Shown here piece by piece: positions 15,491 through 64,000 of a DNA stretch of 64,000 nucleotides (position 1 is the first letter of the stretch; each line of letters starts with the position of its first letter). Position numbers and translations under genes: made by a program. The notes under the pieces are model-generated. The model did not search any database. It was not told the DNA's origin and was given only the letters and a program-made list of their open reading frames with translations. Origin of the DNA: Artemia franciscana (lineage: Eukaryota; Arthropoda; Branchiopoda; Anostraca; Artemiidae); NCBI RefSeq assembly GCF_032884065.1, contig NC_088865.1, forward strand, positions 45,509,685 to 45,573,684, given 5' to 3'.

Positions 15491-15822
15491 TCAAACAGTT
15501 CGTGGTAACGAACTGTAGTAAGGAGTGACCCGGCTCAGTAGCAAAAGAAACTCTAAAAAATAGAATTTTGATACCAATAGTAACTTCAAAAGAATTGCAT
15601 TTTTATGCTGATTTTAAATATATAAGTTTCATCAAGATTAGTTTTACCCATCAAAAGTTACGAGCCTGAGAAAATTTGCCTCATTTATGAAAATAGGGGG
15701 AAAACACCCCCTAAACGTCATACGATCTTAACGAAAATCACACCATCAGATTCAGCGTATCAGAGAACCGTATTCTAGAAGTTTCAAGTCTCTATCTACA
15801 AAAATGTGGAATTTCTGGTTTT
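15491..15822 (+). repeat. Fold-back family, truncated left arm
   Basis: Hairpin tip at 15495-15516 and about 330 bp of arm. It is cut by a second copy starting at 15823 inside it, so one element inserted into another of the same family or the tip was duplicated. Confidence 0.88.
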
Positions 15823-17500
15823 TCAAACAGTTCGTGGTAACGAACTGTAGTAAGGAGCGACCCGGCTCAATAGTAACCAAAACTCTAAAGAATTGAATTT
15901 TGATATCAATAGCTACATCAAAAGAATCGCATTTTAATGCTGATTTTAAATATATAAGTTTCATCAAGTTTAGTCCTACCCATCAAAAGTTACGAGCCTG
16001 AGAAAATTTGCCTTATTTATGAAAATAGGGGGAAACACCCCCTAAAAGTCGTAGGATCTTAACGAAAATGACACCATCAGATTCAGCGTATCAGAGAACC
16101 CTACTGTAGAAGTTTCAAGCTCCTATCTACAAAAATGTGGAATTTTGTATTTTTTGCCAGAAGACAAATCACGGGTGCGTGTTTATTTGTTTGTTTTTTT
16201 GTTTTTTTTTTTTTTTTTTTCCCAGGGGTCATCGTATCGACAAAGTGGTCCTACAATGTCGCAAGAGGGCTCATTCTAACGGAAATGAAAAGTTCTAGTG
16301 CCCTTTTTAAGTGACCAAAAAATTTGGAGGGCATCTAGGCCCCCTCCCACGCTCATTTTTTTCCCAAAGTCAACGGATCAAAATTTTGAGATAGCCATTT
16401 TGTTCAGCATAGTCGAAAACCATAATAACTATGTCTTTGGGGATGACTTACTCCCCCACAATCCCTGGGGGAGGGGCTGCAAGTTACAAACTTTGACCAG
16501 TGTTTACATATAGTAATGGTTATTGGGAAGTGTACAGACGTTTTCAGGGGGATTTTATTTTATTTGGGGGTGGGGCCGAGGAGAGGGGGCTATGTTGGAG
16601 GATCTTTCCTTGGAGGAATCTGTCATGGGGGAAGAAAAATTCAATGAAAAGGGCGCAGGATTCTCTAGCATTACTATAAGAAAACAATGAAAAATAAACA
16701 TGAAAACGTTTTTTCAAATGAAAGGAAGAAGTAGCATTGAAACTTAAAACGAACAGAGATTATTACGCATATGAGGGGTTCTAAAAATACTTTAGCATAA
16801 AGAGCGAGGTATTTAGGAGGAGATAAGTACCTTGCTCTTTATGCTAAAGTATTTTTAGTAATTTCAACTATTTATTCTACGGTCTTTCTGATTCAGGGGT
16901 CATTCTTAAAGAATTGGGACAAAACTTACGATTTAGTGTAAAGAGCGAGGTATTAACGAGGGTACAAACCCCCTCGTATACATAATAAAAAAATAAGGTT
17001 ATGAAAGTTTGTTACGTAAGTTAATTCTTAAGTTACGCATATTTTTTACTAATAAAAACGTTCGTTAAAATTAAAAGTTCTAGTTGCCTTTTTAAGTAAC
17101 CGAAAATTACAGGGCAACTAGGCCTCCTTCCTCACCCCTTATTTCTCAAAATCATCTGATCAAAACTAAGAGAAAGCCATTTAGCCAAAGAAGGAATTAA
17201 TATGCAAATTTCATTTTAATAATTTATGTGCGGAGAGCCAAAACCAAACATGCATTAATTCAAAAACGTCCAGAAATTAAATAAAAAAAAACTAATTTTT
17301 TTAGCTGAAAGTAAGGAGCGACATTAAAACTTAAAACGAACAGAAATTACTCCGTATATGAAATGGGTTGTCCCCTCCACAATCCCTCGCTCTTTACGCT
17401 AAAGTTTGACTTTTTGCCACAATTCTACTTTTTAAAACAATTAAAAGCTTTATCAGTAAAGACATCAGGAGGGCCTCTTCATCCAAGGCCTTCTTTGCCT
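15823..17500 (+). repeat. Fold-back family, long left arm plus half a core
   Basis: Begins with the hairpin tip and 'aaggagcgacccggctcaat', then runs through the whole arm: 'ccaggggtcatcgtatcgac', 'ggagggcatctaggcccc', 'gtgtacagacgttttcaggg', 'acgtaagttaattcttaagt', 'gtgcggagagccaaaacc'. It ends in the left arm and spacer of the palindromic core at about 17440. A right arm is missing. It contains the 31-bp hairpin at 16781-16858. Confidence 0.9.
16781..16858. repeat. Hairpin, 31-bp stem, 16-nt loop
   Basis: Arm 16781-16811 and arm 16828-16858 are complementary at every position except one, which is G-T and can pair as G-U in RNA. It lies inside the fold-back arm. The homologous hairpin at 36970-37047 has two changed positions. 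Confidence 0.9.
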
Positions 17501-18021
17501 CATTCTTAGTTTATTCATGGAATTAATAAATGAAGGGAAATGCATATGGTTTAATTCATAGCTTCTTTTGTTATATATAGTACTCAGTGTTTGGTTGCTG
17601 TGCTTATTTTTTTGCACTTATGGACACTTTTATTTACTTTACAAGTGAGATATTAGATTTCCAATTTAGTTAAAAAAAAGGATATGCCTATCCATCCATT
17701 TGGCTACTTCTAAATAACATTTTTTTTTTCGTAGACCAACCCGAGTTTTCTCTTTTAAGCTTCCCTTACTATTTGTTTGTTTTAGACGGAGTATTAATCT
17801 CAGCGGAGCTCCTCTCCGTGGAGGGGCCTCCAAAGTTAAGCCCAATTTCTACCTTATTCTTATTTGCTTCAGACAAGATAATCCAATATTTATTCAGCCC
17901 TCTTAAGGGATCTCAGTATTGACGCCATCATTCTTTATAGCGTTGTCTCGTTGACAGAACTTTGTAAACATTACCAAGTGAAGCGAACCTAGAATTTCGG
18001 CCTCATTAACTTACTACTTAC
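17501..18021. other. RhoGEF intron or 3' sequence without recognised features
   Basis: Immediately downstream (leftward) of the GTAAGT donor of the DH exon. A short hairpin ('ctccgtggag' region, about 17808-17830) is visible. No further DH exon found. Confidence 0.5.
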
Positions 18022-18207
18022 CCTTCTAAGAAAACATTGACTAATCATTTGGGGATCTTCTATGAAATGTTCCAAATCGGGTAAGAAGATATTGCTATGG
18101 AAATCATGTATTTGCTCCAAGTTCCCGAATAAAACTTCCTCTTTTCCTAACAACGTTAGAGGAATTTTTTGCTGATTTTCTAGGCTGATCAGTTCGTCCT
18201 TGTATCC
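18022..18207 (-). CDS. Dbl-family RhoGEF, next DH-domain exon
   Basis: A 186-nt exon (62 codons, phase 0-0) with acceptor ttctttttag just right of 18207 and donor GTAAGT (RC of 18016-18021). It reads GYKDELISLENQQKIPLTLL, then GKEEVLFGNLEQIHDFHSNI, and ends DPQMISQCFLRR. The segments VLFGNLEQIHDFH, FLPDLE and CFL are the second conserved region of DH domains. Joined to the exon ending at 20125 (…SEIGVILR) it gives an uninterrupted DH reading, which confirms both borders. It is short and broken by no stop. In known DH domains the next segment resembles 'Y..YC.N.P'; no matching exon was found between 1 and 18000, so the gene continues beyond the left edge or was missed in repeats. Confidence 0.9.
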
Positions 18208-18354
18208 CTAAAAAGAATTCAGTTACCTTTCAAACATTATTAACTAATTTCGGAGACCACACTGCTTACGTATGACGAAACGAGAAAACGAAGAAAATCA
18301 CAGGTATATTTAGAAACAAAAAAGAAAACAGTAATGACTATCATTAAATCTTTA

Positions 18355-18687
18355 CAGTAAGATTCTCTGGTATACTGAATCTGATGGTGCAATTTTCATT
18401 AAGATTCCATGGTTTTTCGGGGGTATCTCTCCCTTTTTCAAAAATCGCTCAAATTTTTTCAGGCAATCTGCTTTTGACGAGTTTTAAGCTTAATGGATTT
18501 TAAGTTTAATTCATTAAGCTTAATCAATTTTGTGTATTTAGAATCAGCATAACTAGAAAACTCTTTTGATGTATCTTTTGAAAAACTCTTTTGATGGAAT
18601 TTTTTTCAAAATTTCATTGTTAAGAGCTTTGGTTACTATTGGGCCAAGACGTTCCCCACTTACAGTTCATTACCATGAACTGTTGGA
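18355..18687 (-). repeat. Fold-back family, reverse outer end
   Basis: Runs from 'gattctctggtatactgaat' through 'ggttactattgggccaag' to a worn tip 'cattaccatgaactgtt'. More diverged than other copies. Confidence 0.8.
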
Positions 18688-19290: not shown

Positions 19291-19559
19291 TAAATTTAGC
19301 TAATAATGATTTAAATTTGTATTTCAAAATTGCCTTGACTGAGTAGGATCTAAGACTGAAACGAAAACAAAACAGCGTAAAAAATAGTACAATTCAAAAT
19401 TTTTTTGTTGTTAAATGGCTTAGTAATTATTACCAAAGAACCAATCAGGCCGTATATAGGCGGAGTTATTTGTTTTACCAGAAACCACATTTCCAGCTTG
19501 AGTATAGATCTTGTCGTTCAACATTAGCTAATTTTTAAAAACGGTATGAGTATTTTTCT

Positions 19560-19870: not shown

Positions 19871-19889
19871 GTCTAAAAAGCAGGTGTAA

Positions 19890-20082: not shown

Positions 20083-20124
20083 TCAGTAAAAAAAGCATTA
20101 CTCTAATTTTGAATAATAAATTAC

Positions 20125-20436
20125 CCTCAAGATGACTCCAATTTCAGAAACATAAATTCTTTCAGTTTCGAGAAGTTCTGTCAGTATATGACCTCGTTTC
20201 ACTTTCAAGGCTTCAGTATCGGTGTTTGTTAAAGAGTCAACAGAGCTGGTCATTTCTTGACGTGATGCACTTCGCAGTCGGGGTCGTATTAGTTCTTGAG
20301 GTTTGACAGCATTTACAGGAACTGCAGGCTCTGGTGTTACAGGTTGAATAGGTTTAGGAGGTCGTGAAATTATTTTCTTAAGGGAGGATCGTCTTCGAGA
20401 GCACATGACTTGGACATCTTCGACTCGCTTTAAAAC
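20125..20436 (-). CDS. Dbl-family RhoGEF, exon with linker and start of the DH domain
   Basis: A 312-nt exon (104 codons, phase 0-0) read leftward. It lies between the acceptor tctctttag (AG at 20438-20437) and a GTAATT donor (RC of 20119-20124). It opens VLKRVEDVQVMCSRRRSSLK, then a basic, proline- and serine-rich linker, then KRGHILTELLETERIYVSEI, which is the first helix (CR1) of a Dbl-homology domain. DH domains catalyse GDP-GTP exchange on Rho GTPases at membranes and the cytoskeleton. The wording of CR1 is closest, from memory, to MCF2/MCF2L (Dbl/Dbs) and puratrophin-type proteins. Upstream exons (CRAL-TRIO or spectrin repeats in those families) were not found. An in-frame ATG inside the exon is probably not the start, because coding-like sequence precedes it up to the acceptor. 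Confidence 0.88.
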
Positions 20437-22555: not shown

Positions 22556-24205
22556 TCAAACAGTTCGTGATAACGAACTGTAGTAAGCAGCGACCCGGCT
22601 CAATAGTAACCGAAACTCTAAAAATGGAATTTTGATACAAATAGTTACATCAAAAGAATTGCATTTTAATGTTGATTTTAAAAATATAAGTTTCATCAAG
22701 TTTAATCTTACCCATCAAAAGTTGAGAGCCTGAGAAATTTTGTCTTATTTTAGAAAATAAAAGGAAAGACCCCCTAAAAGTCAAAAAATCTTAACGAAAA
22801 TCACACCATGAGATTTAGCGTATCAGAAAACCCTACTGTAGAAGTTTCAAGCTCCTATCTACAAAAATGTGGAATTTTGTATTTTTTGCCAGAAGACAGA
22901 TCACGGATGCGTTTTTATTTGTTTTTGTTTTTTCTTTTCCCCAGGGGTGATTGTATCGAACCAGTGGTCCTAGAATGTCATAAGAGGTCTCATTCTAACG
23001 CAAATTAAATGTTCTAATGCCCTTTTTAATTGACCAAAAAATTGGGGGCACTTAAGCCCCCTCCCACGCTAATTTTTTCCCAAAGTTACTGAATCAAAAT
23101 TTTGAGATAGCCATTTTGTCCAGCAAGGTCGAAAAACCTAATAATTATGTCTTTGGAGACGACTGTCTCCCTTACGGTCCCCAGGGGAGGGACTGCAAGT
23201 CACAAGCTTTGGCCATACTTTGGCCATTCAAGTAATTTTTATTGGGACATGCACATACGATTTAAGGGGGACTTTTTCACGTTAAAAGGGGGTTGGGAGA
23301 GGCGGTTACATGGGAGGATTGTTCCATGGAGGAATTTATCATGAGGGAAGGAAATTTACATGAAGGGGCCGCAGGATTTTCTAGCATTATTAAAAGAACA
23401 ATGAGAAAATAAATAAAAAAAGAATTTGTGGTGGAAGTAAGGATCAGCATTAAAACCTAAAACGAACAGAAATTATTTACAGTATTTTTAGTAATTTCGA
23501 CTATTTATTCTACGGCGTTTGTGATTCAGGGGTAATTCTTAAAGAATTGAGACCAAGTTGAATCTTAAGTTTAAAGAGCGAGGTATTGATGAGGGGGAGA
23601 ACCCCCTCATATACGTAATAAAAATATACAATCATAGAATTTCGTTACGTAAATTAATTCGTAAGTTACGTATATTTATTACTAATAAAAACCTTAGCAA
23701 AAAAATGAAAAGTTCTAGTTGTCTTTTTAAGTAGCCTAAAATTGGAGTGCAAATAGGCCTCCTCCCCCACTTTTTTTTTACCAAAATCATCCGATCAAAA
23801 CTATGAAAAAGCCATTTAGCCAAAAGAATAAAAATAATGTGCAAATTTCGTTTTAATTATTCATGTGCGGTGAGCCAAAATCAAAACACGCATTAATTCA
23901 AAAACTTTCAGAAATTAAATGAAAAAAACACGTTTTTTAACTGCAAGTAAGGAGCAAAATTAAAACTTAAAACGAACAGAAATTATTCCGTCTATGAAAG
24001 GGGTTGTCCCCTCCTCAACGCCTCTCTCTTTACGCTAAAGTTTTTTAATTTAAAAAAAGTAGAGTTATGAGAACGAGTCAAACTTTAGCGTAAAGAGCAA
24101 GGCATTGAGGAGGGAACAACCCCTTTCATAAATGGAATAATTTCTGTTCGTTTTAAGTTTTAATTTTGCTCCTTACTTGCAGTTAAAAAACGTGTTTTTT
24201 TTCAT
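22556..24205 (+). repeat. Fold-back family, left arm plus complete palindromic core
   Basis: Hairpin tip (CAGTTCGT gata ACGAACTG) at 22561, a full arm to about 23925, and a complete core at 23930-24205 ('aaggagcaaaattaaaactt' … 'ttaattttgctccttacttg'). The right arm is replaced by another left-arm copy starting at 24206. Confidence 0.9.
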
Positions 24206-25530
24206 TTAATTTTTGCCAGAAGACAAATCACGGATGTTTGTTTGTTTGTTTTTGTTGTTGTTTTTTTCCCAGGGGTGATCGTATCGACTCAGTGGTCCTA
24301 GAATGTTGCAAAAAGTTCTATTATAACGGAAATTAAAAGTTTTAGTGCCCTTCTTAAGTGACCAAAATTGGAGGGCACCTAGGCCCCCTCCCACGCTCAT
24401 TTTTTCCCAAAGTCACCAGATCAAAATTCTGAGATAGCCATTTTATTCACCATAGTCGAAAAATCTAATAACTATGTCTTTTTATAACTATGCCTAATAA
24501 CTACGACTTACTCCCCCGCAGTCCCGGTGGGAGGGGCTGCAAGTTATAAACTTTGACCTGTGTTTACATATAGTAATGGTTACTGGGAGGTGTTCAGACG
24601 CTTATAGGGGGATTTTTTTGGGGGGAGGGGTATTTAGGAGGTTCTTTCCACGGAGGAACTTCTCATGGGGAAGAGACTTTCAATGGAGGGGGCGCAGGAT
24701 CTTCTAGCATCATTTAAAAAAACAATGAAATGATAAATATGAAAAGTTTTTTCTACTGAAAGTGAGGAGCAGCATTAAAACTTAAAACAAACAGAAATTA
24801 TTATGCATATGAGGGGGTTACCTCCTCTTGATACCTAGCTCTTTACGCTAAAATATTTTTAGTAATTTCAACTATTTATTCTTCGACCTTTGTGATTCAG
24901 GGGTCATTCTTAAGGAATTGGGACAAAATTTAAGCTTTAGTGTAAAGAGCGAGGTATCGACGAGGGGTGAGCCCCCTCATATACGCAATAAAAACATACG
25001 AATATAGAAGCTCGCTACGTAAGTTAATTTGTAAGTTACGTATATTTTTTACTTATGAAAACGTTTGTAAAAAATTAAAAGTTATAGTTGCCTTTTTAAG
25101 AAATCAAAAATTTAGAGGGCAACTAGGCCTCCTCTCTCGCTCCTTTTTTCTCAAAATCTTCCGATTAAAACTATGAAAAAGCCATTTAGCCAAAAAAATT
25201 AATATGCAAATATCGTTTTAATTATTTATGTGCGGAGAGCCAAGATCAAAACATGCATTAATTCAAAAGCATCCAGAAATTAAACAAGATAAAACAAGTT
25301 TTTTAATTGAAAGTAAGGAGCGACATTAAAACTTAAAACGAACAGAAATTACTCCGTATATGAAAGGGGTTTTTTTTTCCTCAGCGCCCCGCTCTATACG
25401 CTAAAGTTTTTTACTGTTTTAAAATGTGGAGTTAACAGAAGGAGTCAAACTATGTATAACTACTTTTACATAAAGGACATAAAGGAGTTAACAGAAGGAG
25501 TCAAACTATGTGTAGTATAACTACTTTTAT
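24206..25530 (+). repeat. Fold-back family, second partial left arm and half core
   Basis: Begins mid-arm at 'tgccagaagacaaatcacgg', continues through 'gtgttcagacgcttataggg' to a core left arm (25295-25400), then breaks. A tail duplication of about 55 bp ('gagttaacagaaggagtcaa') lies at 25428 and 25484. Confidence 0.88.
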
Positions 25531-26448
25531 CTATCCAGTAGATAATTGATAATGTAATATATATTGGTGCATTTATCTATCAGTAAAACTTAAAATTTTC
25601 CTATAAGAAAATTGCTAAGGATACACTTTTGAGATGTAAGATTTTTAACTCTAATCTGGGGCATATCCAGGATTTTCTTCTTTTTTTCTCCTTGTGTTTT
25701 ACGAAAAAGATCTTTAGAAAACACATCACAATTTATTATATTATATAATTTCTTAGTTTTTCTCAGGTCGGACAAAAATTTTGGGGGAAGGGGGATCAAA
25801 CCCAATACCATCCTCCTAGTTACGGCCTTAAATCAATTGCTAATTTTTTCTTTCAAATATAATTATTTGTTAAATAGAAGCACCATAAGTGTATAAAGAG
25901 GGAAAGTCAGACTTAGACCAGTTATTCTAATTTTCAAATTAATCGCACAAAACTAATTTTGCCGTCCAAAGGTTGTTCAATAGAGCCAAATAAATATATT
26001 CATTCTATAAATAATTGGAATTAATTACAATATGCTGCATAGAAAGTAGGATTTGTCTATCCTTGTCAGGAGATGCACGTTAATAAGATGATATATAGCT
26101 AAACTTGGAAATACTGAACACGGTTCTTCACCAAAACAGAATAGAAAATATACAAATTTTAAAAGCTCATTAGAAATACAGATATGGAACAAGAATATGC
26201 CAGGCAGTCCATTTGTTGTTGCTATGACACCACTGCTCGCAGAATATATTAAGGTTTGATTTGACATAATCTATGGTGTATTGAAGCAGTGACGTACGAC
26301 CCGCTGGGTAGAAATGTTAGAATCAAGTATCAAAATTCGTTATACTTTTCGGCAAAGGTGATTTACCTTATAACTTCAAGGATTTACCTTACAACTACAA
26401 AAATTCTATGTTTTAGAAAACAGTAATAAAATAAGCTTGAAAGAGAAC
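25531..26448. other. Presumed FAR 5' flank
   Basis: No transposon family from the rest of the window is recognised here. A 21-bp tandem duplication ('gatttaccttataacttcaa') lies at 26360-26400, just upstream of the FAR start. Promoter elements could not be identified with confidence. Confidence 0.4.
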
Positions 26449-26640
26449 ATGGCATCTGAAATTGTCAATTTTTATCGTGATCGATCTGTTTTTATTACTG
26501 GAGGTACTGGATTTTTTGGAAAGATTTTGATTGAAAAACTACTTCGGAGCTGTCCAGGACTGAAAAATATATATGTTTTGATACGCCCGAAAGCAGGACA
26601 AGACCCTAAGAATAGATTACAGGATTTATTGTCAGCAGTA
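26449..26640 (+). CDS. Fatty acyl-CoA reductase (FAR), coding exon 1
   Basis: Encodes the first 64 residues of a FAR, the membrane-associated enzyme that reduces fatty acyl-CoA to fatty alcohol with NADPH (wax, cuticular lipid, pheromone precursors). The reading starts [20 protein letters not shown]. The Rossmann nucleotide-binding motif TGGTGFFGK is at residues 17-25, followed by the family segments [10 protein letters not shown] and IYVLIRPK (about 28-48). The ATG at 26449 was chosen because its context (AACATGG) is good and the N-terminus then has typical FAR length; the frame stays open a little upstream. The exon ends after codon GTA at a strong donor (gtaagt, 26641), phase 0, and joins exon 2 in frame. 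A TTTTAG at 26411-26416 could be an acceptor for a 5' UTR intron. The identity is secure; which FAR paralogue it is cannot be told. Confidence 0.93.
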
Positions 26641-26764
26641 GTAAGTACTTGCTAACCTTTATCGGCTAAGGTGATTCAAAAGGCGATATATTACATACGC
26701 ATAATATTTGCCCCAGAAGATTGGAATAACTGAACATTTTTTCACTGTAACTAAGGACAAGTTC

Positions 26765-30099: not shown

Positions 30100-31206
30100 A
30101 AACTTGTTTTGGTATTCAATTTCTGATCGTTTTTTAAAGAATGCATATAAATCTGCCTCACCTTCCATGAAATATAGCCCCTCCCTCTCAAGAGAAATTC
30201 CTTGGATATTTTATCCAACATAAAGTAAATTCCCTCCATACAGTTGCATCCCCGCTGAAATTTCCCCCTCTCTGTATTTTTGTGCAGACGATTCAGCCAG
30301 AAAATTCACGTGACCATACTTTCATTTGAAAAAGACAATAAACTCTAATCGGTGTCTCGATCACTCCGGAAATGCCCCTTTCGTGGAATTTTCTTGCCGG
30401 AAATCAAAACACGTGGAAAACTGCCCCGAATATCTCCTCTGGAACATCTCTACGCGCAGAATTGAGTTCCCTATTGGAATTCCCTATTGAATCCCTCTTA
30501 TGCATAAATTCCCCCCCCACGAAATATGATTTTATAATTCCCCAAAAAAATATTATACATAAACAACGGGCGGCCTTTATAGCTTGCAGGCCTCTCCCCA
30601 AGGACTTTTGGGGGTCATTTTACTCCTAAAATCATGGATTTTTAATATTTCATCTATAATTAATAAAAATTACTATTTCAAAATTTTTATCAGATAACTT
30701 TGGGAAAAATGGGCGGGGGAGGGGGGCCAGTTACCTTCCAATATTTTTTGTCACTTAAAAAGAGTGCTAGAACTTTTAATTTTCGTTCAAGTGTACCCTA
30801 TCACAATCTTCTAGGACCCTTAAATATGATCACCCCTAGGGGAAAAAAACAAAACAAAGATAAGTAAACACGCATACAATCTTTAGTAAAAACAGCAAAA
30901 TTCCACATTTTTGTATATGGACACGTAAGCTTCTACAGTATGGTTCCCTTGTACAATAGATCTGATGGTTTGATTTGCATTAAGATTCCTTGAATTTTAG
31001 GGGGCATTTCCCCCTATTTTGAAAATCTGGCAATTTTTTCAGGCTCGTAACTTTTGATATGTAACACTAAACTTAATGTATCTATATTTGGAATCAGCAT
31101 AATAAGCTGAGGTATTTCTTGATATCAAAATTCGGTTTTTTAGAGTTTCGGTTACTATTGAACCGAGTCGCTTCTTACTTACAGTTCGTTACCAAGAAAC
31201 TATTGA
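30100..31206 (-). repeat. Fold-back family, diverged reverse half with tip
   Basis: From 'tttctgatcgttttttaaag' through C-rich arm sequence, 'ggcgggggaggggggccag', 'aaatatgatcacccctaggg' and 'cggttactattgaaccgagt' to the worn tip 'cagttcgttaccaagaaact'. The pair of overlapping open frames at 30372-30629 and 30404-30601 is arm sequence, not a gene. Confidence 0.78.
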
Positions 31207-33989: not shown

Positions 33990-34860
33990 TTTTCAACTGA
34001 AAATAAGGAGCAATATTGAAACTTAGAACGGATGCTAATTATTAAGAATATGAGGGGGTTCACTCCCTCGTCAATACCTCTCTTTCTGAACTAAAGTTCG
34101 ATTTTTGTTCCAATTCTTTAAAAGTGACCCCTGGATCACTGAGGCCGTCTAGTTAGAATAAATAACTTTTTTGAAAGTACTAAAAGAAAATTAGTGTAAA
34201 GAGGGAGGCATTGACGAAGGAACGAACCCCCTCATATACGTATTAATTTCCGTTTGTTTTAAGTTTTAATGTGGTTCCTTACTTTAAGTTGAAAAAAATA
34301 TTTTTATTTTTAATTTAATTTCTGATCGTTTTTTTAATAATGCTGAGATCCGGCACCTCTTCATGGAAATGTTTTTTTCCTATTAAAAAAATTCTACCAT
34401 GAAAAGGTTCTCACGCGCAACCCCCTCCCCCACCCCACCAGAAAAAAACCCTTAAAACATTTTTATACTTCCCAATAGCCAATACTATATGTAAGTAAAG
34501 GGTGAAGTTCATAAAATGCCAGCCCTTTCCCTGGGACTATGGGGGATTAAGTCATCTTCAAAGACATATTTATTAGATTTTTCGACTATGCCAAAGAAAA
34601 TAGTTATCTCAAAATTTTTATCGGATGGCTTTGAGAAAAAAAAGTGTGGTAGGGGGCCTAGTTGCCCTCCAGTTTTCTGGTCACTTAGAAAGGGCACTAC
34701 AACTTTTTTTGTTCAAATGAGCCCTCTCAAAATATTCTAGGGCCACTGGGTCAATACGATCACCCCTGGGGAATAACCAACAGAATAACAATACAAAACA
34801 AACCAATAAACACATGCATCCGTGATCGTTCTTCTGGAAAAAATACGATATTCAACCTTT
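33990..34860 (-). repeat. Fold-back family, diverged core and reverse half
   Basis: Core 33990-34300 ('aaggagcaatattgaaactt' … 'taatgtggttccttacttta'), then a reverse arm ('ccctgggactatgggggatt', 'gtcaatacgatcacccctgg'). It is cut at 34861 by a new forward copy. Confidence 0.85.
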
Positions 34861-35700
34861 TCAAACAGTTCGTGGTAACGAACTGTAGTAAGGAGCGATC
34901 CGGCTCAATAGTAACCAAAACTCTAAAAAATTGAATTTTGATATCAATAGCTACATCAAAAGAATCGCATTTTAATGCTGATTTTAAATATATAAGTTTC
35001 ATCAAGTTTAGTCTTAGCCATCAAAAGTTACGAGCCTGAGAAAATTTGCCTTATTTAGGAAAATAGAAGGAAACACCCCCTAAAAGTCGTAGGATTTTAA
35101 CAAAAATGACACTATCAGATTCAGCGTATCAGAGAACCCTACTGTAGAATTTTCAAGCTCCTATCTACAAAAATGTGGAATTTTGCATTTTTTGCCAGAA
35201 GTCAAATCACGGGTGCGTGTTTATTTGTTTGTTTTTTTTTGTTTTTTTTTCCCAGGGGTCATCGCATCGACCAAGTGGTCCTAGAATGTCGCAAGAGGGC
35301 TCATTCTAACGGAAATGAAAAGTTCTAGTGCCCTTTTTAAGTGACCAAAAAAATTGGAGGGTATCTAGGCCCCCTCCCACGCACATTGTTTTCCCAAAGT
35401 CAACAAATCAAAATTTTGAGATAGCCATTTTGTTTAGCATAGTCGAAAATCATAATAACTATGTTTTTGGGGATGACTTACTCCCCCACAGTCCCTGGGG
35501 GAGGGGTTGCAAGTTACAAACTTCAACCAGTGTTTACATATAATAATGGTTATTGGGAAGTGTACAGACGTTTTCAGGGGGATTTTTTTGGTTTTGGGGG
35601 TAGGGTTGAGGGAGGGGGCTATGTGGGAGGATCTTTCCTTGGAGAAATATGCCATGGGAGAAAAAAATTCAATGAAAAGGGCGCAGGACGAATCTGGTCA
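34861..35700 (+). repeat. Fold-back family, truncated left arm
   Basis: Perfect tip hairpin at 34864-34887 and about 830 bp of arm, closely similar to 15823-16670. It ends at 'aaaagggcgcagga' before unrelated sequence. The overlapping open frames are arm sequence shared by other copies. Confidence 0.9.
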
Positions 35701-36022
35701 CGTTAGAAAAAAACGTCAAATTAAGAGCTTAATATACAATGCTGGGTGTTCGGAGCCTCTCTATTATGGAGTATAAATTGAAAATAACACAACTATAAGA
35801 TCGATAAAACATATATACCACAACCATAACTCAACTAACGAAAGAACTGCTAAGAGATAACACAACTATAAAGCAAAAACAGGTGAAAACTAACGGGAAA
35901 ATAAACGAACTAAGAGGTGGAAGGGGCCCAGAGAAAAAATATAATCCTTTTTCAATTTTGAGCCTAACTTCCGCAAAGGAGTAATAATGTCAGAAGCCCG
36001 GAAATACCGAATTATTTTCTTT
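35701..36022. other. Non-repetitive intronic segment
   Basis: No match elsewhere in the window was noticed. A phrase like 'actaacgaaagaactgcta' precedes A-rich sequence. No coding signature. Confidence 0.4.
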
Positions 36023-38060: not shown

Positions 38061-38258
38061 ACAGGCTGGAAATCTGATAATTTTTTTCAGGCTTGTAGCT
38101 CATTGGCGGGCAACTTTAAACTGAATGGCTTTATATATTTACCAATCACCATAAAATGGTAATTCGTTTTACGTATATTTGTTATTAAAACTCTTTTTTG
38201 GAGTTTTGGTTACTATTAGCAAGAGCTGCTCCTTAATTACGTTACCACGAACTGCTTG
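38061..38258 (-). repeat. Fold-back family, old reverse end
   Basis: Diverged copy: 'tttcaggcttgtagctcatt' … 'ttttggttactattagcaag', then the tip 'gttaccacgaactgcttgg'. Confidence 0.7.
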
Positions 38259-43000: not shown

Positions 43001-43270
43001 TAATAAAAAGAAACACGCACCCGTGATCGGTCTTCTGGCAAAGAATAAGAATTTCCACATTTTTTAGTTAGGAGCTTCTAACTTTTATAGTGGGGTTATC
43101 TGATTCGCTGAATACGATGGTGTGATTTTTGTTAAGATCTTATGACTTTTAGAGGGCGTTTCCCCCTATTTTCAGAAATAGGGCAAATTTTTTTCAGGCT
43201 CGTATCTTTTGATGGGTATGACTAAATTGGATGAAACTTACATGTTTAAATCTACATAAATTATACAATT
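40076..43270. repeat. Giant fold-back with two tandem cores
   Basis: Left arm 40076-41360 in forward orientation (starting inside the tip at 'aaggagcgacccggctcaat'), core 1 at 41360-41640, core 2 at 41685-41960, right arm 41961-43270 in reverse orientation. Hallmarks appear twice in mirror order: 'gtgtacagacgttttcaggg'/'aaacgtctgtacac', 'ggagggcacctaggc'/'gcctaagtgccctcc', 'gtgatcgtatcgact'/'gtcaatacaattacccc'. The outer hairpin tips are lost on both sides. Confidence 0.92.
40700..40765. repeat. G-rich tract (possible quadruplex) in fold-back arm
   Basis: Runs of 10 and about 13 G separated by AGATTTGA, then further G runs after 'tgttatg'. Other copies have only short G runs here. Confidence 0.7.
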
Positions 43271-43880
43271 CTTTTGACTTATAATTTTTTCTTCTTTGTC
43301 ATTTGTCAATACTGCTTCTAGACCTCTCTGTCTTTAACAGTTCACAGAACTGTAGGGTTCTCTGATATGATGTATCTAATAAAGGGATTTTCAATAGGTT
43401 CGATTGCTTTTTTGGGAGTGTTTCCTCATTTTTTAAAAATCAGGCAAATTTTCTCAGATTTTTGGTTTTGGGTGGGTAACAATAAACTAAACAATAAAAA
43501 ACAATAAGCAATAAACTTCTAGCCCTATCTGTCTTTAATCTACTTCCAGCCCTTTCTGTCAGGTATTACGGCTTTATTTTCAGACAATTTAGAAAACTTT
43601 TTAAGTTTTCAAAGCTGTCAATATTTTCAGCCTGTCAATACCTGTCAGTGCTGCTTCTAGCCCTTTCTGTCTTTAACAGTTCGCCGAACTGATGTAATTT
43701 TATTTCAGCTAATTTAATTAAATTTATTAAATCAAATATAAATTTAATAACTAAAATATAATTAACAATTAATAATTATTAATAATTAATAATCAATAAT
43801 TAAAATATAAATTTAATTTTAATTTATTAAAATAAATTAAATATTAACAAAATTAAATTTATAATTACTTGCACTATCAT
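43271..43880. repeat. Short tandem phrases and AATTAAT-rich DNA
   Basis: 'cttctagccctttctgtctt' phrases recur near 43315, 43505, 43545 and 43655, two of them followed by an 'aacagttc…gaactg' mini-palindrome. 43700-43870 is almost pure A/T with AATTAAT motifs. Confidence 0.6.
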
Positions 43881-50254: not shown

Positions 50255-51873
50255 CAAATTGAATAAAAAAACAAGTTCTTTAACTGCAAGTAATGAGCGA
50301 CATTAGAACTTAAAATGAACAGAAATTACTCTGTATGAAAGGGGTTGTCCCTCCACAACGCCTCGCTCTTCACGCTAAAGTTTGACTCTGTCACAACTGC
50401 ACTTTTTAAAACAATAAAAAAAAAATAGTGTCAAGAACGAGGCGTTGCGGAGGGACGACCCCTTTCATACGGAGTAATTTCTGTTTGTTTTAAGTTTTAA
50501 TGTCGCTCCTTACTTGCAGTTAAAAAAAACTGGTTTTGTTTTATTTAGTTTCTGAACGTTTTTGAATTAACACATGTTTTGATTTTGGCTAAACACACAT
50601 GAATTTTTTGCTAAATGGCTTTCTCATAGTTTTCATTGGATGATTTTGATAAGAAAGAGGTGGAGGAGGGGGCCTAGTTACCCTCCAATTTTTTGCTAAT
50701 TAAAAATGCAACTAGATTTTTTTTATTTTTTGTACTAATGTTTTGGTTAGTAATAAACATACGTACCTTACGAATTAATTTACGTAACAAAAATCTATAT
50801 TTGTGTATTTTTATTACGTTTGTGAGGGGGTTTGTCCCCTTTTCAACACTTCGCTCTTTACACTAAAGCTTGAATTTTATACCAAATCTCAAAGAATGAC
50901 CCCTGACTCACAAAGGCCGTAGAACAAATAGTTGAAATTACTAAAAATACTTTAGCATAAAGAGCAAGGTATTGTAGAAAAGACGAACCCCCTTATAAAC
51001 GTAATATTTTGTGTTCGTTTTAACTATTAATGCTACTCATTACTTCCAGGAGAAAAAAAATTTAGTTTCCCATTTTTTTAAATAATGCTAGAAAATCCTG
51101 CATCCCCTTCATGGAAATTCTCTTCTCTCATGATTAATTCCTCACGGAAAGATCTTCCCACGTAACCCCCTCTTACCCCAACATGAAAAACTCCCCCTGA
51201 AAACGTCTGTACACTCCATAGTGACCATTACTATATGTAAACAATGGTCAAAGTTTGTAACTTGCAGCCCCTCCCCCGGGGAATGTGGGGGATTAAGTCG
51301 TCCTTAAAGACATAATTATTAGGTTCTCAACTAAGTTGAACAGAATGGCTATCTCAAAATTTTAATCCGGTGACTTTGGGGAAAAATGTGCGTTGGAGGG
51401 GGCCTAGATGCCCTCCTGTTTTTGGGTCACCTAAAAAGAACACTAAAACTTTTAATTTACGCTAGAATGAGCCCTCTGGCAACATTCTAGTACCACTGGA
51501 TCAATACAATCACCCCTGAAAAAAAAAATTAATAAAATAAAAAAAACAAAATAAACACACATCCGTAATCTGGCTTCTGGCAAAAAATACAAAATTCCAC
51601 ATTTTTTGTGATAGGAGCTTGAAAGATTAGCAGTGGGGTTCTCTGATACGCTTAATCTGATGGAGTAATTTTCAGTATTTCCCCCTATTTTCTATAATAA
51701 AGCAAATTTTCTCAGGCTCGTAGCTTTTGATGGGTTGTACTAAACTTAATGAAACTTATATATCTAATATCAGCATTAAAATCTAATTCTTTTGATGTAA
51801 CTATTGGCATCAAAATTCTGTTTTTGGAGTTTCGGTTACTATTGAGCCGGGTCGCTCCTTACTACAGTTCGTT
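50255..51873 (-). repeat. Fold-back family: core plus reverse half
   Basis: Core 50255-50545, then reverse arm: 'ttttggctaaacacacatga', 'agttaccctccaattttttg', 'aaaacgtctgtacactccat', 'cagcccctcccccggggaat', 'cggttactattgagccgggt'. It ends in a broken tip 'ctacagttcgtt'. No left arm is present. Confidence 0.9.
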
Positions 51874-52670: not shown

Positions 52671-52913
52671 TCTCTTTATTATCAATTTTACTACCATAAA
52701 CAAGATTCAGTTCCAAATCATCAGTAATGAAATATATATAAGAAAAAACTCTAAAAGATTGTTTACCTACCGATATTGTTGAGGTATAAAGAATCAGTGG
52801 AAACACTATCTTTTCTGACGCCTCTTTTATTATGTTGCACTGGAAGCCGTTGTCTATTATCGACACATCAATTAATAGAGAATTATTTAACTCAAAAATC
52901 ATATGTTTTTCAG

Positions 52914-53162
52914 GCGTTTGACAATATTCGACAAAACCATCCAGAATTTTTCAGCAAAGTTATTCCAGTTTCTGGAGATATTTCCAGAGATGAGCTTGGA
53001 ATATCTCCCCAAGATTTGCAGATGATGTCTGAGACCGTATCGATTGCCTTTCATTCTGCTGCGATAGTACGTTTTGATGAACCGTTGAAGAGTGCCATTG
53101 AGCTGAATGTTAAAGGAGTGAAACGAATGCTTTCTGTTTGTAAGAAGCTGGAAAATCTGGAG
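52914..53162 (+). CDS. Fatty acyl-CoA reductase (FAR), coding exon 2
   Basis: A 249-nt exon (83 codons, phase 0 at both ends) between an acceptor with a T-rich tract (tgtttttcag, ending 52913) and a GTACGG donor at 53163. It continues the FAR Rossmann domain as residues 65-147. AFDNIRQNHPEFFSKVIPVS matches the family segment before the GD(L/I)S motif. Next come GDISRDELGISPQD and the hallmark FHSAAIVRFDEPL (about 110-122), then ELNVKGVKRMLSVCKKL. It joins exon 1 (LLSAV) and exon 3 (VLVHVSTAY) without a frame break. Because it is a multiple of three and phase 0-0, skipping it would keep the frame but remove part of the fold. The open frame to its left is intron and not coding. Confidence 0.93.
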
Positions 53163-53559
53163 GTACGGAAGCTTATGATATTCATGTCGTTACTGTAACT
53201 AGGCAGGTCTCCAATCTTAATGAATTTTTGGTTAGTAAATTTGCAGATCAGATAGACCTTCTTAGGAGCAAGCAAACATGTAATTGGGAGTGATTAAACT
53301 TCCGCATGGCCAACTTCAACATTTAAAAAAAGTTGGAATGGTTGTAGATAAGAAAACTCTCCTTCCGGAGACCTGGATTGTAAATCCACAGTCTGGATTG
53401 TGAATATGCCGTTCCACTAACAGCATATAATATGGGTCTAATGTCAGTCCGAAGTATGAAGATACCGTAAGACAGACAAAACAACCTCACTCCTAAATGA
53501 ACTGACACTGACTCAATGACTTAATGCCTACTTATAAGTATCTGCCCGCCCACAGAGGC

Positions 53560-57870: not shown

Positions 57871-58199
57871 TATAAATGTACATAATGTTGAGTTTTTATC
57901 TTGTAATCATGTACATTTAAACATTTAAATATTTTTATGCATCATGTCTAGCCCACTAACGTCATTTAAGAAGATTAATAATAACTGACTTAAAGATTCG
58001 CTCGTTGAAAAATCGTGCATAACGCTTTCAAGAAGATAGATAATGCTTTTTCTTCTTTATTAATCCAAGTACGTTCTAAAAAGCACGTTCTCATAGATGC
58101 TTTGCTCGACTTCCAGTTCTAATGAATATAAAACAAGTATTTCTCGTGAAAACTGGTCCAGACTGGCAGTCAAGCTTGGGCTAAGTTTAGATAGAAAAT

Positions 58200-60315
58200 T
58201 GAACAGTTCGTAGTAACGAACTGTGGTAGCGACTTGGCTCAATAGTAACCGAAACTCCAAAAAAACAGAATTTTGATACCAACATATGCGTCAAAAGAAT
58301 TGAATTTTTATGCTTATTTTAAAATTTTACCATCAAAAGTGACGAGCCTGAGAAAATTTGCCTTATTTTCGACAAAAGGGATAAACATCCCCTAAAAGTC
58401 ATAGAATCTTAATTAAAATTACACCATCACATTCAGTGTATCAGAGAACCCTACTGTAGAAGTTTCAAGCTCCTATGTGCAAAAATGTGGAATTTTGCAT
58501 AAGTGTTTATTTGTTTTTTTCCCAGGGGTGATCGTATCGACCCAGTGGTCCTAGAATGTCGTGAGAGGGCTTATTCTAACGGAAATCAAAAGTTCTAGTG
58601 CCCTTTTTCAGTAGCCAAAAATTGGAGGGTAACTAGACCCCCTCCCACGCTCACTATTTCCCAAAATCACCGGATCAAAATCCCAGAGTCCCCGGGGGAA
58701 GGGCTGCAAGTTATGAGCTTCGCCCATTGTTAACATATAGTATTGGTTATTGACGAACTATAATGACATTTTCAAGGTGTATGATTTTGGTGGTGGGAGG
58801 GGGGTTGGAGATTACATGAAAGTATCTTTCCATTGAGAAATTTATCATGGGGGAATATATATTTTATGAAGAGGGCGCTGGATTTTCCAGCATTATTTAA
58901 AACAACAATGAGAAATTAGATAAAAAACAAGTTTTTTCAACTGAAATTAAGGAGCAACATTCAAGAAATTATTACATATATGAGGGGTTCATCCCCTCCT
59001 CAATACATCGCTCTTTACTCTAAAGTATTTTCGGTAAATTCAAATGAGCTATTTATTCTAATTAAACGGCCTTTGTGGTTTAGGGATCATTCTTAAAGAA
59101 TCGGAGCAAAATCCAAACTTTAGTATAAAGAGCGAAATATTGACGAGGGGACAAATCCCCTCATATACTTAATAAAAATATACGAATATAGAAGTTCGTT
59201 AATTAAGTTAATTTGTAAGCTAAGTATATTTATTACTAATAAAAACGTTCGTAAATAAATTAAAAGTTAGTGGCCTTTTTAAGTAAACAAAAAATAGGAG
59301 GGCAACTAGGTCTCATCGCTCGCCCCGACAAGGGTCGTTTAATTACAATAATAAGCTGTTTTTAGAAGTTCAAAAAAATCTTAGCGTAAAGAGCGAGGTA
59401 TTGAGGATGGGGATACCCCCCTCATATTCGTAATAATTTCTGTTCGTTTGAATTGTTAATGCTGCTCCTTACTTTCAGTTGAAAAACTTGTTTTTATATT
59501 TAATTTCTAATCATTTTTAAAATAATGCTGGGAAATCCAGCTCCGCCTCCATTGAACACCTTTTTCCCCACAAAAGATCCTTTCGAATTCCTCCGTGGAA
59601 AGATCCTTCTATGTAGCCCCCACCCCCACTCTAAAAATATCTGTATATTTCCCAGCAGCCGATACCATATGTAAACAATAGGCAAAGATCATAGCTTGTA
59701 CCGCTTCCTCTGGGGGCTATGACGGGTCAACTCATCTTCAAAGACATAGTTATTAGATTTTTGACTGTGCTGAACAAAATGGTCATAATAAAATTTTGAT
59801 CGGAAGAATCTGAGGAAATAATGGGTGTGGGAAGGAGGATAGCTGCCATTCAATATATTCGGTTACTTAAAAATGACACCAGAAATGTCTATACCCGATG
59901 AAATGGACCCTCTCCCAATTATCTAGGATAACTGGTTCAATACGATCACGCCTGGAAAAAAAAAACAAAACAAATAAACACATTTGTGAGCTTACTTCTG
60001 ACAAAACTCTTATATAGGAGTTTGAAACCACTACAGTAAAGTTCTCTGATATGCTGAATCTAATGGCGTGATTTTCATTAAGATCACTTGATTTTTGGGG
60101 GGGATTTCCCCTCTTTTTCAAAATTTTGGAAAATTTACTCAGGCTCGTAACTTTTCATGTTTAATTTAAACTTGATAAATTAATATTTTCTGAATAAGCA
60201 TCGAAATTTAATTCTGTAGATATATCTATTGTTACCAAGACTCTGTTTCTTAGAGTTTCGGTTACTATTGAGCCGCATCGCTTCTTACTTACAGTTCGTT
60301 ACCACAAACTGTTTG
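58200..60315. repeat. Complete fold-back element, both tips
   Basis: Tip 'cagttcgtagtaacgaactg' at 58203; left arm to about 59320; shortened core 59330-59490; right arm 59490-60250 in reverse order; final tip 'cagttcgttaccacaaactg'. Total about 2.1 kb. It contains no reading frame of a transposase, so it can only be moved by another element's enzyme. Confidence 0.92.
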
Positions 60316-62009
60316 ACCATATTGTTCCATCCTTTCAGTTTAAAAACAGGTTTTTAATATTTAATTTCTGACCCTCTTCATTCGTGCTAGGAAATGCCAC
60401 TATACCAATAGTGATTAATATACAAGCTTAAATTGTAAGAAATATGCTTTAATATAACTTTAAATGAAGATCGTATAAGACATAATATGATCTCTGGAAA
60501 TCCGGTTATTTCTCTCTGCACAAGAGTGAACTTCAGGCTATGAAAAAAAAATTCTAAAGCTAGTCTATAGTCCTAATACTATCAAGATGGCTTTACTTCG
60601 AACTTGTAAACAAACTAATCATGATATGACCTTATCAGAACCAAAACAAGAGCCAGGCATTGAACTAAGCCATCACGCAGAAGTGATACCAAATTAAACG
60701 AGAAAACAATAAAAATAAAGCAAGAATCCTAAAATGGATTCATGCTTTATCTTAAAATAGATTACTCCTTAAAATGATTGATGATATTTTTATTCTGTGA
60801 AGTGTCCTTAATTGGTTTGCTTTTACTGTGCCAAAACTCCTATATTTTTTTTGTTCAGTAAAGAGCTAATTTTCTATAATCCCTCCGCGGGGGAGTATTT
60901 TCTGTGCTTTTTTGGGAGGGGGTATTTTCGGGTTTTTTTCCGGGGAGGAGGGGGGGTTAAACACCAAGGAACTTAGAAATCAGCATAAAAAACCAACAAT
61001 GTGACATTTGTCGTCAAAATTCTTTATTTATGTTAAAATTTACTTTAATTTTAGCTCCTGTTTGTTTTAAGTTTCAATGTTACCCCTTATATAGGTTTAA
61101 TTTTAGATACTTGTATGATAAACCCCCTACCACTCAAGTTGTTTATTCATTGACGCATTACAGAACCGGCTTTTTCGTTTGTTTCTCTCAGCTTAGCGTG
61201 AGACAAGACAAAAAGATGTGACAAAATAGATGGAAAATATATAATTTGCGCCATTTGTTTGCACATTAGGGGGGGAATTATTTGGAAAGTGTCAAGTTAG
61301 AAAACAGCTCTTACTATATAATATGCAGAATAATTGTACCTAACACATCAGACATGCAGACCCGCTATACTTTACCCCCCCCCCCCCTAAGGTGCAAATA
61401 TGTATCCCAAAATTGTTTCTAAAGTGTTATATTTTTGTCTTAAGTTGGTAAATTTTATTAGGATTGTCCGTCAGAGAAACACATTAGAAGAACATTAGGT
61501 AGGGGATATGTCATATAAGTACCAGCTTTTTTCTATTTAATTTACCTATCTGGAAATTGCAGTCAATATTTGTTTTTGTTTTTTAATATTATTAATGGGT
61601 TACAGGGATTTTTGTCTTAATGAAGAATTACTACTGCTATTTGCAGGTCACACGTATTCACTATTTATTTATTTTTAATTTGGAAACAACTTTGAAGTTT
61701 TGCCACAATATCACCAATAATCAAAAGGGTATTATATCAAAATATAATATCACAAAATCACAATAATCAATATCCCAATATCAAAAGCTCTGAAAAAGGC
61801 TTGATTTACTACGTGGATCCAATCTCAACTTGAGCCTGAAAACACAGCTAAAACCAATTTCAGCTCCCACATTTTCGCAAAGAAATTCATTTTTGTTTTC
61901 TTTCCCAAAAATTCCCCGAATCTTGAAGACTTGTCACCAGAAACTCCCCGATTTCTTAAGACTTGTCCCCGAATTTTAAGATTATAGAGTGGAAGCCCTG
62001 ACTGAGGGT
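60316..62009. other. AT-rich DNA without recognised features
   Basis: Holds G runs at about 60945-60957 and a C run at 61375-61388. No FAR exon or transposon family was identified. Confidence 0.45.
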
Positions 62010-62250
62010 ATCAAGTTGAAACTTTCAGGGCTACTGCTATTAATATTTCTGTTTTTATATTTTGAATAAATTAAAAGAGTCTAAGCGTGTCCAGGTTGTC
62101 ATGGAGTAAAGAAAGGTTGTTTAGAGAATAATATTAAGTTTTATTTTTTAGGTCAACTTGAAGTGATATAAAGTCGAATTAAACAATACTATTTGTGTTC
62201 AGATTAAAAACTGTTGAAAAAGTTTCTCCAACATGCAAATAGCAAGTCAA
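62010..62250. repeat. Copy of the 12000-12260 repeat
   Basis: Same order of landmarks as 12000-12260 and the same end, 'agtttctccaacatgcaaat'. Confidence 0.75.
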
Positions 62251-62319
62251 ACTTTATTTTTATAGATAAAAACGAAAAAAGTATAAATTTTTTTCTATGA
62301 AAAGATTATCTAAATAAAA

Positions 62320-62850
62320 AACGAACAGAAATTAATCTAAAAAAAAATTCCACACGACAAGTTTTTCAAAGAAAAGTGAAGAACTCCATTAAGCCAAAAA
62401 TAAGCAGAAATAAATTCAAATAATCTTCCAAGCGTAAAACTACCATAAATCACCATCAATAAATAAATGAAAGCCAAAACGAACAGAAAATATAATAAAT
62501 AAACAAGTCAAGACTATCTAAATAAAAAACGAACATAAATTAATTTAGAAAAATTTTCCAAGGAGCAAGTTTTTTAAAGAAAAGTAAAGAGCTCCATTAA
62601 GCCAAAAATTAGCAGAAATAAATTCAAATGATCTTCCAAGGAAAAACTACCGCAAATTACCATCAATAAATAAATTAAACCAAAAAAAAAACAACAGAAA
62701 TTACAGTAAATAACCGAGTTATTCTCAAAACGATCAAAAATTAACACGAGTAGTAATGACAACCCTCGTACCCACTTAAGACCAGAACATATTTTGCACT
62801 TTACTGAAGAAAAAAACAACAGCAAATGGCCGTAGATTGTCTGTTAAATA
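62320..62850. repeat. Tandem duplication, unit about 200 bp, plus shared tail
   Basis: 'aagaaaagtgaagaactcca' at 62371 and 'aagaaaagtaaagagctcca' at 62577 head equal units that include 'ttaagccaaaaat' and 'aagcagaaataaattcaaa'. The tail (62710-62810) matches 51960-52060 and 11510-11620. Confidence 0.75.
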
Positions 62851-63395
62851 TACATATTTGTTCTTTAAAGTTTTGATAATTTTTTATTTATTAAAGAAAA
62901 AGGTGAAACATTCAAAATGTATTTTGTATCTTGAGAAACGCGCAATTTGAGGTTTAAGGCACCTGGACCCCTATCAAAAAATATATAAACCTCTGTACTC
63001 CTACAAAAATTGGCCTTTAACTATTTATTCCTACATAATCGTTAGTGTGGTTTTCATGTAGCCTGCGCTCAATTTAACAATGACAGTTTTGTCTGGACTG
63101 AACATTTATTGGGACGAATATACTGCTGCGCAGGAGTATGCCTTTGGGACTAGGGGCCAATATAAACAGCTCTTATATAGTTCTAACCCGAATAGTTGCC
63201 TTCAAACTTCAGCTCTATAGTATTTTGACCCTGACGGGTCAAAGATAATATCTTCGCAATATGATTGGGATTTGGCAGTAATGGATATTCCATTTTTGTT
63301 GCTATCTCTCTCGTTACTTAGAAAGGGCTCTAGGACTTTGATCTTCTGATGAAATTATCCTTTTGCTAATATTGTACAGCCCATTTCTTAATAAA
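62851..63395. other. Non-coding DNA, nothing recognised
   Basis: No repeat family match apart from the approach to the core at 63396. No exon seen. Confidence 0.45.
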
Positions 63396-63694
63396 ATTAA
63401 ATAAAAAAAACTAGTTTTTTTAACTGAAAGTAAGGAGCGACATTAAAACTTAAAACGAACAGAAATTACTCCGTATATGAAATGGGTTGTCCCCTCCGCA
63501 GTCCCTCGCTCTTTACGCTAAAGTTTTTAATTGTTTTAAAAAGTAGAATTGTGGCAAAGAGTCAAACTTTAGCGTAAAGAGCGAGGGACTGCGGAGGGGA
63601 CAACCCATTTCATATACGGAGTAATTTCTGTTCGTTTTAAGTTTTAATGTCGCTCCTTACTTTCAGTTAAAAAAACTAGTTTTTTTTATTTAAT
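63396..63694. repeat. Palindromic core, perfect 131-bp inverted repeat
   Basis: Arm 63396-63526 and arm 63564-63694 are exact reverse complements as far as I could check base by base, with a 37-nt spacer. Almost identical to 37468-37766, so this is the least decayed subfamily here. Confidence 0.95.
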
Positions 63695-64000
63695 TTCTGA
63701 ACGTTTTTGAATTAATGCATGTTTGATTTTGGCTCTCCGCACATAAATTATTGAAATGAAATTAGTATATTAATTTTTTTTTGGCTAAAACGTCTGTACA
63801 CTTCCCAATAACCATTACTATATGTAAACACTGGTCAAAGTTTGTAACTTGCAGCCCCTCCCCCAGGAATTGTGGGGGAGTAAGTCATTCCCAAAGACAT
63901 AACTATTATGGTTTTCGACTATGCGGAACAAAATGTCTATCTTAAAATTTTAATCTGTTGACTTTTGGAAAAAAATTAGCGTGGGAGGGGGCCTATTTGC
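63695..64000 (-). repeat. Fold-back family, reverse arm running off the window
   Basis: 'ttctgaacgtttttgaatta', 'tttggctctccgcacataaa', then a jump (deletion at about 63786) to 'aaaacgtctgtacacttccc' and 'cagcccctcccccaggaatt'. The element continues beyond 64000. Confidence 0.9.

Follow-up and report, generated by a model that had tools for sequence, protein, structure and literature searches.

A family of fold-back-like repeats was analyzed in a 64,000-nt window of the Artemia franciscana genome (NC_088865.1, positions 45,509,685 to 45,573,684). An earlier description made from the letters alone (the sequence-only reading) had pictured each copy as a central palindrome with two arms of 1–1.4 kb ending in hairpin tips, and had found no named superfamily for it. 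Neither statement held. When the window copy at 34861–38059 was aligned to 20 loci, the unit proved to be one-directional, running from a hairpin tip to where the palindrome ends, and its anatomy places the family with Helitron2/Helentron. The family, with units of about 1746 bp, is probably a HINE-like rolling-circle transposon of the Helitron2/Helentron type, non-coding and non-autonomous, in which the arms of a 3' palindrome were homogenised and its spacer was occasionally inverted in amplifying lineages, most likely by template switching. An apparently unclassifiable fold-back repeat would thereby become a rolling-circle-type element with defined ends.

The tip is a 22-nt hairpin, ACAGTTCGT-ggta-ACGAACTGT. 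Allowing up to three mismatches, it matched 12 times in the window and not once in 100 shuffles; one of the 12 matches was a palindromic echo of the tip at 22556. All seven forward tips of the sequence-only reading and four of its six reverse tips matched the hairpin. The other two reverse tips (31206 and 38258) were more degraded and were recovered by alignment. The family covered 19,863 of the 64,000 bases. Genome-wide counts, here and below, were made in an assembly of 1,270,528,402 bases in 6468 contigs. The exact 22-mer was found 29,141 times (14,565 and 14,576 by strand), whereas the reversed control was not found. The A. franciscana genome holds tens of thousands of copies of the element, as the expectation of a high-copy family had implied. 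The absence of a transposase was also confirmed for the six open reading frames (ORFs) tested, which were 94–106 aa long, lay inside or overlapped copies, and had no Pfam match. An Rfam search of the window gave 0 matches, the exact 35-nt tip gave 0 matches in viral contigs, and the titles and abstract openings listed in literature searches contained nothing describing the family.

The 20 aligned loci were all on contig C1, and all copies came from one assembly. Many of these loci (at least the first nine) were picked for nearby plus and minus tips; the orientation of neighbours was therefore biased and was not used. A search found 70 tips and 66 3'-end matches, which gave 46 automatic pairs and 20 ends without a tip. 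Twenty-three delimited copies were picked by hand from the automatic pairs and the window-copy alignment, and some 3' borders were trimmed again. Most of the discarded pairs were judged by eye to be truncated copies, chance matches or reversed readings of the inner palindrome arm. A consensus of 1746 bp was built from 16 of the 23 copies, which were 1627–1817 bp long and each diverged by 5–13%. In many aligned copies the unit was asymmetric: it began at the 5' tip and stopped where the palindrome (about 300 bp) ends, with unrelated flanks beyond. The border was sharp at TCAA, 4 nt outside the 5' hairpin, so the prediction that borders coincide with the tips was correct at this end. The last element bases were ...GTCGCTCCTTACTTTCAGTTAAAAAAACTWGTTTTTTTTATTTAA|T, followed by unrelated sequence. 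The palindrome itself was real, but it was the 3' end of the element and not a central core. A hairpin at each end of a long inverted repeat was not observed, as the 23 delimited copies had a 5' tip and a different 3' end.

The borders read (A/T)|TCAA-hairpin ... ATTTAA|T. The base following the element was T in 22 of the 23 copies (p = 4e-10 against an assumed base frequency of 0.33). The preceding base was A for 16 copies, T for five and G for two (p = 5e-4 for A, same assumed frequency). In a larger set, A preceded 33 of 47 tips, at least three of the 47 being inner tips of composites with one common flank. The flanks were inspected for target-site duplications (TSDs), as the sequence-only reading had recommended, and none of 4, 5, 6, 7 or 8 bp was found in the 23 copies at the border used. 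Joined flanks gave a spanning match for 11 of the 23 copies. Six were counted as clean and base-exact (L012, L013, L014 minus, L020 first, L028 plus and the window composite at 34861), and the other five were low-complexity or weak. The matched empty sites are not orthologous alleles; they are further copies of the repeat that the element had entered, some of them in the same locus. The empty site of L013 matched window positions 55518–55328 (91.6% over 191 bp), and that of the window composite closed between T and T. All clean empty sites joined across exactly the unit from tip to palindrome end.

The order of the terminal parts was compared with known elements. At the 5' end, TCAA was followed by a hairpin with a 9-bp stem (nt 5–26) and a 13-nt repeat, AGTAAGGAGCGAC (nt 27–39). 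At the 3' end, the order was GTCGCTCCTTACT, TTCAGTT, an A7/T7-type hairpin (AAAAAAACTWGTTTTTTT, 6–7 nt from the end) and ATTTAA. In the consensus the 13-nt repeat recurred inverted 32 nt from the 3' end. All nine pairs of the 5' hairpin were intact in the 22 rows, of 23, that were aligned; since the copies were found by their tips, this intactness is not independent evidence. A 5' hairpin, asymmetric subterminal inverted repeats, a near-end 3' hairpin preceded by the 3' repeat, and the lack of a TSD are the published plan of Helitron2/Helentron, and the placement rests on this anatomy. For Helitron2, a hairpin at each end and short inverted repeats in an asymmetric arrangement are described (PMC3627910). 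HINEs are described as having subterminal repeats of 12–15 bp and a palindrome at the 3' end, leaving the target unmodified and inserting in T-rich sites (PMC4067079). FoHeli1/2 of Fusarium have TCAG at the start and ATTTT at the end, and their insertion point lies between TNAT and T (PMC5148889). With Helitron2 and FoHeli the family has in common the hairpins at both ends, the asymmetric inverted repeats whose 3' copy comes immediately before the 3' hairpin, and the T/TC start, and non-autonomous Helitron-1N elements likewise lack duplications (PMC3627910, PMC5148889). We conclude that the family works like the Helitron2/Helentron group and most likely belongs to it as a non-autonomous member.

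There are differences from each published relative. The family has another end sequence than Helitron2, and a giant 3' palindrome with inverted spacers. Compared with HINE/DINE-1 (PMC4067079), its 5' hairpin and its 13-nt repeat are separate, with the repeat 26 nt away from the end; its target is (A/T)|T, and its 3' palindrome is about 300 bp, versus 5–10 bp. The non-autonomous Helitron2 elements CRe-1 to 3 of Chlamydomonas are reported with duplications of 7–19 bp, unlike the present family. ATons of Aedes aegypti are similar in being non-autonomous, inserting at AT, lacking a known transposase and in part carrying subterminal palindromes. A difference is that ATons, which are described as quite small, carry terminal inverted repeats at both ends (PMC3422177). 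A published Artemia assembly is given as containing 8.81% Helitrons, a figure that may include the present family.

Several observations weigh against the placement. The target was mostly A|T and did not follow the TT rule of Helentrons or the TTTT|T/C rule of Helitron2. The 3' terminus was TTAA, not CTRR. The 5' inverted repeat was 26 nt from the end, versus 0–4 nt as published for Helitron2 and HINE. With an alternative border, at which the element would end in AAT, one of the 23 copies had 5 bp in common between its flanks, where 0.10 were expected. Finally, exact-end searches genome-wide, in which four odd tips were read for 1.5 kb, found no RepHel gene with the family's ends.

The 3' palindrome was analyzed as an inverted repeat in its own right. 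Consensus positions 1449–1746 formed two arms with 91.6% identity around a 43-nt spacer, and the outer end was the 3' border of the element. Over 131 pairs in 23 copies, 94.5% of the cells were paired. Complementary double changes occupied 128 cells, whereas shuffles gave a mean of 37.3 (maximum 50 of 500) and slid partners gave 3–12; since changes are common to related copies, the shuffle by itself does not prove arm co-evolution. Changes private to one copy are less open to this kinship objection. Nine private double changes were observed versus 0.28 expected. Among the types of change found in at least three copies, 16 were compensated and 6 mispaired, whereas among private types 20 were compensated and 93 mispaired (p = 8e-7); this contrast is likewise less open to the objection. 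In an older inner palindrome (consensus 954–1030), used as an internal comparison, none of the shared types was compensated and 13 were mispaired. The 45 compensated types comprised 28 transitions and 17 transversions. In L019, L025 and L026, a one-base length change was mirrored in both arms.

Gene conversion, or selection acting on the hairpin, could also account for the likeness of the arms, and the six mispaired types common to at least three copies also speak against homogenisation. Under selection, only elements with a foldable 3' hairpin would transpose, and changes would be compensated one by one. This would agree with a palindrome that stops exactly at the 3' border, with shared changes that are mostly compensated, and with G-U wobbles making up 31 of the 105 distinct single-side types. 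It is possible, though we consider it rather improbable, because the 17 transversions among the 45 compensated types require an unpaired intermediate, the one-base length change appeared in both arms of the three copies named above, and selection would not invert the spacer.

A deviant canonical Helitron1, whose 3' end changed from CTRR to TTAA and which gained its 5' hairpin secondarily, was considered as another origin of the family. The genome contains a very abundant and young canonical Helitron (L049 to 5891, L050), two copies of which were 99.9% identical over 5.6 kb. It has a 1663-aa ORF with Helitron_like_N and PIF1 domains, and its 3' end, CTAG|T, follows a GC-rich hairpin and lies next to TA repeats. 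Both families are of the rolling-circle class and have a T after the 3' end, and the present family also has the TC start and the mostly A-T insertion of Helitron1. They differ in the CTAG|T end, the GC-rich 3' hairpin and the RepHel ORF of the canonical element, and no common terminal sequence was seen. When 20 canonical-family loci were compared with the consensus, only simple repeats and scraps with E values of 0.002 or weaker were found, and by eye the canonical 3' end, the only end covered by that comparison, was different. A Helitron1 would lack a 5' hairpin and end in CTRR-3', whereas the present family has the hairpin and ends in ATTTAA|T; the 5' hairpin and the asymmetric inverted repeats are published features of Helitron2. 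Descent from Helitron1 is therefore unlikely. In L049, a minus-strand family copy ends directly beside the canonical Helitron.

An autonomous partner was also sought, and none was found in the places read. The dominant PF14214 canonical Helitron, for which 150 of 7435 first-look candidates were scored, was rejected as a partner because its 3' end is different. Genome-wide, nine exact tips ran into non-family letters, and three exact 3' ends had non-family letters before them. One of the nine odd tips was a deleted copy (L011 6498), three continued with palindrome letters, and four were read for 1.5 kb (L051–L054). L052 and L054 were ordinary family copies with a small rearrangement. L051 and L053 ran into foreign DNA, and no open frame longer than 87 aa was present in the 1.5 kb. 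Low-copy genes with the domain DUF6570 gave 47 matches, five of them in open frames of 2446–2701 aa (for example C4112:12028, C76:536697 and C6:2729223). We take DUF6570 to be a companion of Helitron helicases; a literature search on both terms gave nothing, and the genes are only candidate partners. They are possible Helentron-type autonomous elements.

The 43-nt spacer of the 3' palindrome was unambiguous in both orientations, ten of the 23 copies having it one way and 13 the other. Genome-wide, the two orientations occurred at 3340:1196 in one spacer subfamily and 402:4763 in the other, and controls gave 0. These are lower bounds from exact matches with an anchor outside the palindrome, and the gap ranges of the two patterns (105–130 for flip and 130–155 for flop) differ as the marker position dictates. 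A tree was made from the non-palindromic part, which composites entered from their last tip onward. On this tree the orientation needed three changes, all forced by well-supported branches, whereas shuffled orientations needed a mean of 7.8. Spacer inversion is recurrent but rare, and it is inherited. This speaks against a flip at every round. Parvovirus-like rolling-hairpin replication, in which the palindrome would be a hairpin telomere copied and flipped each round, could give identical arms together with flip and flop spacers. We regard it as very unlikely, because orientation followed clades, the genome-wide ratios were far from 1:1, and the spacer of the 5' hairpin was flipped in 0 tips versus normal in 52.

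In yeast, template switching between the arms of inverted repeats has been reported both to homogenise the arms and to invert the spacer (PMC8604942). As it is known to give both outcomes, template switching by a DNA polymerase, in transposition or in ordinary replication, is taken as the likeliest cause of the arm likeness and the spacer inversion. A more specific suggestion is that the 3' palindrome has a function in the element: the single strand would fold during transposition and be copied arm from arm, and arm identity and spacer orientation would be heritable footprints of the rolling circle. This is offered tentatively and is doubtful. If the inversions do occur at transposition, they would be a footprint of a single-strand step. 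Over thousands of copies, the family provides a natural record of arm homogenisation and spacer inversion in one palindrome.

A mechanism can be proposed for the family as a Helitron2/Helentron-type element. A RepHel protein made elsewhere would nick the 5' end, after the A or T that precedes TCAA and the hairpin. One strand would be unwound in one direction until the 3' end, which consists of the subterminal repeat, the hairpin and ATTTAA. The strand would then be joined between A/T and T, and the target would not be duplicated. In amplifying lineages, the arms of the 3' palindrome would be kept alike, and the spacer inverted now and then, by template switching between arms. What the sequences show directly is where the borders lie, that the unit is asymmetric, that the target is not duplicated, and that several sites hold composites in which two 5' ends share one 3' end. 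We infer the enzyme, the unwinding direction and the single-stranded step. For a subgroup of Fusarium Helitrons, a circular intermediate has been suggested (PMC5148889).

Three composites had differing outer flanks, two 5' tips (three in L027) and one 3' end: window 34861–37764, L009 1507–3810 and L027 460–3484. They had a 334-bp filler in common at 97–98% identity. L055 matched the window composite at 96.7% over 2.9 kb and had its own flanks; its first tip and 3' terminus had diverged. These composites moved as units. A start at the outer 5' end and a stop at the first 3' end are what read-through by a rolling circle predicts. Composites with several 5' termini formed by self-insertion have been proposed for Fusarium FoHeli (PMC5148889). 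The filler (window 35689–36022) had 852 first-look candidate places genome-wide, and the best 40 that were scored, counted as filler matches irrespective of composite structure, comprised the window's own and 39 at 98%. On these numbers, the filler spread recently.

Shorter rearrangements were also seen. At C14:38776375, C20:34008999 and C212:79221, tips ran into palindrome letters right after the 13-nt repeat (...AGTAAGGAGCGACATTAAAA), as judged from the matched letters only. It is as if shortened elements arose by recombination at the subterminal repeat. Within the consensus, positions 452–569 recurred at 1239–1354 and positions 837–947 at 1424–1533, and a decayed inverted copy of the 3' end was present at 865–947. 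This suggests that an older, shorter element gained a second, now working, 3' end downstream.

The fold-back appearance of the window arose because neighbours are inverted, copies are nested and one pair lies tail to tail. A genuine fold-back element, in which a DDE transposase would cut and paste a unit flanked by long terminal inverted repeats (TIRs) that each end in a hairpin, would account for several opposite tips 2–6 kb apart and for the long tail-to-tail palindrome at 40075–43277, but it was rejected on the borders and empty sites and is extremely unlikely, because the 23 delimited copies stopped at the 3' palindrome with differing flanks and no second tip, clean empty sites joined tip to palindrome end without target duplication, opposite tip pairs gave no consistent duplication and are read as non-elements, and the window's best example is a nested insertion. 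The "reverse tips", which had been taken for the ends of second arms, were 5' ends of minus-strand copies, some of them split by nested insertions. For annotation, nested and tail-to-tail copies can pass for long inverted-repeat transposons.

The nested example comprises the tips at 34861, 36023 and 38059, which belong to a composite plus-strand element within a minus-strand copy and not to one fold-back. The composite (34861–37764, plus) contains a first 5' tip with consensus positions 1–829, the filler, and a second 5' tip with a complete unit (36023–37764, plus, consensus 1–1746, 90.2% identity) and the single 3' end. It sits between T and T of the minus-strand copy. On the plus strand, its 5' terminus TCAA (34861–34864) is preceded by a host T and followed by the hairpin ACAGTTCGT ggta ACGAACTGT (34865–34886) and the 5' subterminal inverted repeat AGTAAGGAGCGAC (34887–34899), present in this copy as the variant AGTAAGGAGCGAT. 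The 3'-terminal palindrome of about 300 bp occupies 37465–37764 (plus), with the 43-nt spacer in flip orientation at 37595–37637 (plus). The 3' subterminal inverted repeat GTCGCTCCTTACT lies at 37720–37732 (plus), and the 3' hairpin AAAAAAACTAGTTTTTTT(T) at 37740–37758 (plus) is followed by the terminus ATTTAA and a host T. The split minus-strand copy has its inner half at 34228–34840 and its outer half, consensus 280–1, at 37779–38059; the tip of the outer half is the reverse tip that the sequence-only reading placed near 38060.

Other copies in the window were more or less complete. On the plus strand, the copy at 22556–24209 has both ends (consensus 1–937 and 1015–1746). The copy at 15823–17462 covers consensus 1–1633, without the last 113 bp, and interrupts the copy at 15491–15822 (plus, consensus 1–332). 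Only 5' parts are present at 9980–10346 (plus, consensus 1–367), 12583–13157 (minus, consensus 1–573), 18346–18687 (minus, two stretches within consensus 1–293), 30516–31206 (minus, consensus to 720, with a mutated tip) and 38070–38258 (minus, consensus 2–196, with a degraded tip). The long palindrome at 40075–43277 resolves into a tail-to-tail pair of distinct copies that each have a 3' palindrome of their own: 40075–41634 (plus, consensus 27–1740 with a middle gap) and 41663–43277 (minus, consensus 96–1743), both without the hairpin tip. A further minus-strand copy (50265–51873) covers consensus 17–1739. Diverged copies were found at 58199–59326 (plus, consensus 4–1310 with gaps) and 59418–60316 (minus, consensus 1–951). 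Parts of a copy at 63397–64000 (minus, consensus 1352–1746 and 500–713) run off the window.

Probable fatty acyl-CoA reductase-like exons (Pfam NAD_binding_4) were present at 26374–26652 and 52755–53195, about 26 kb apart, and many family copies lie between them, apparently in introns. Positions 20101–20436 (minus), with a Pfam match just under the cut-off, may be an exon of a DBS-like guanine nucleotide exchange factor. Positions 3901–4000 are 100 N, an assembly gap.

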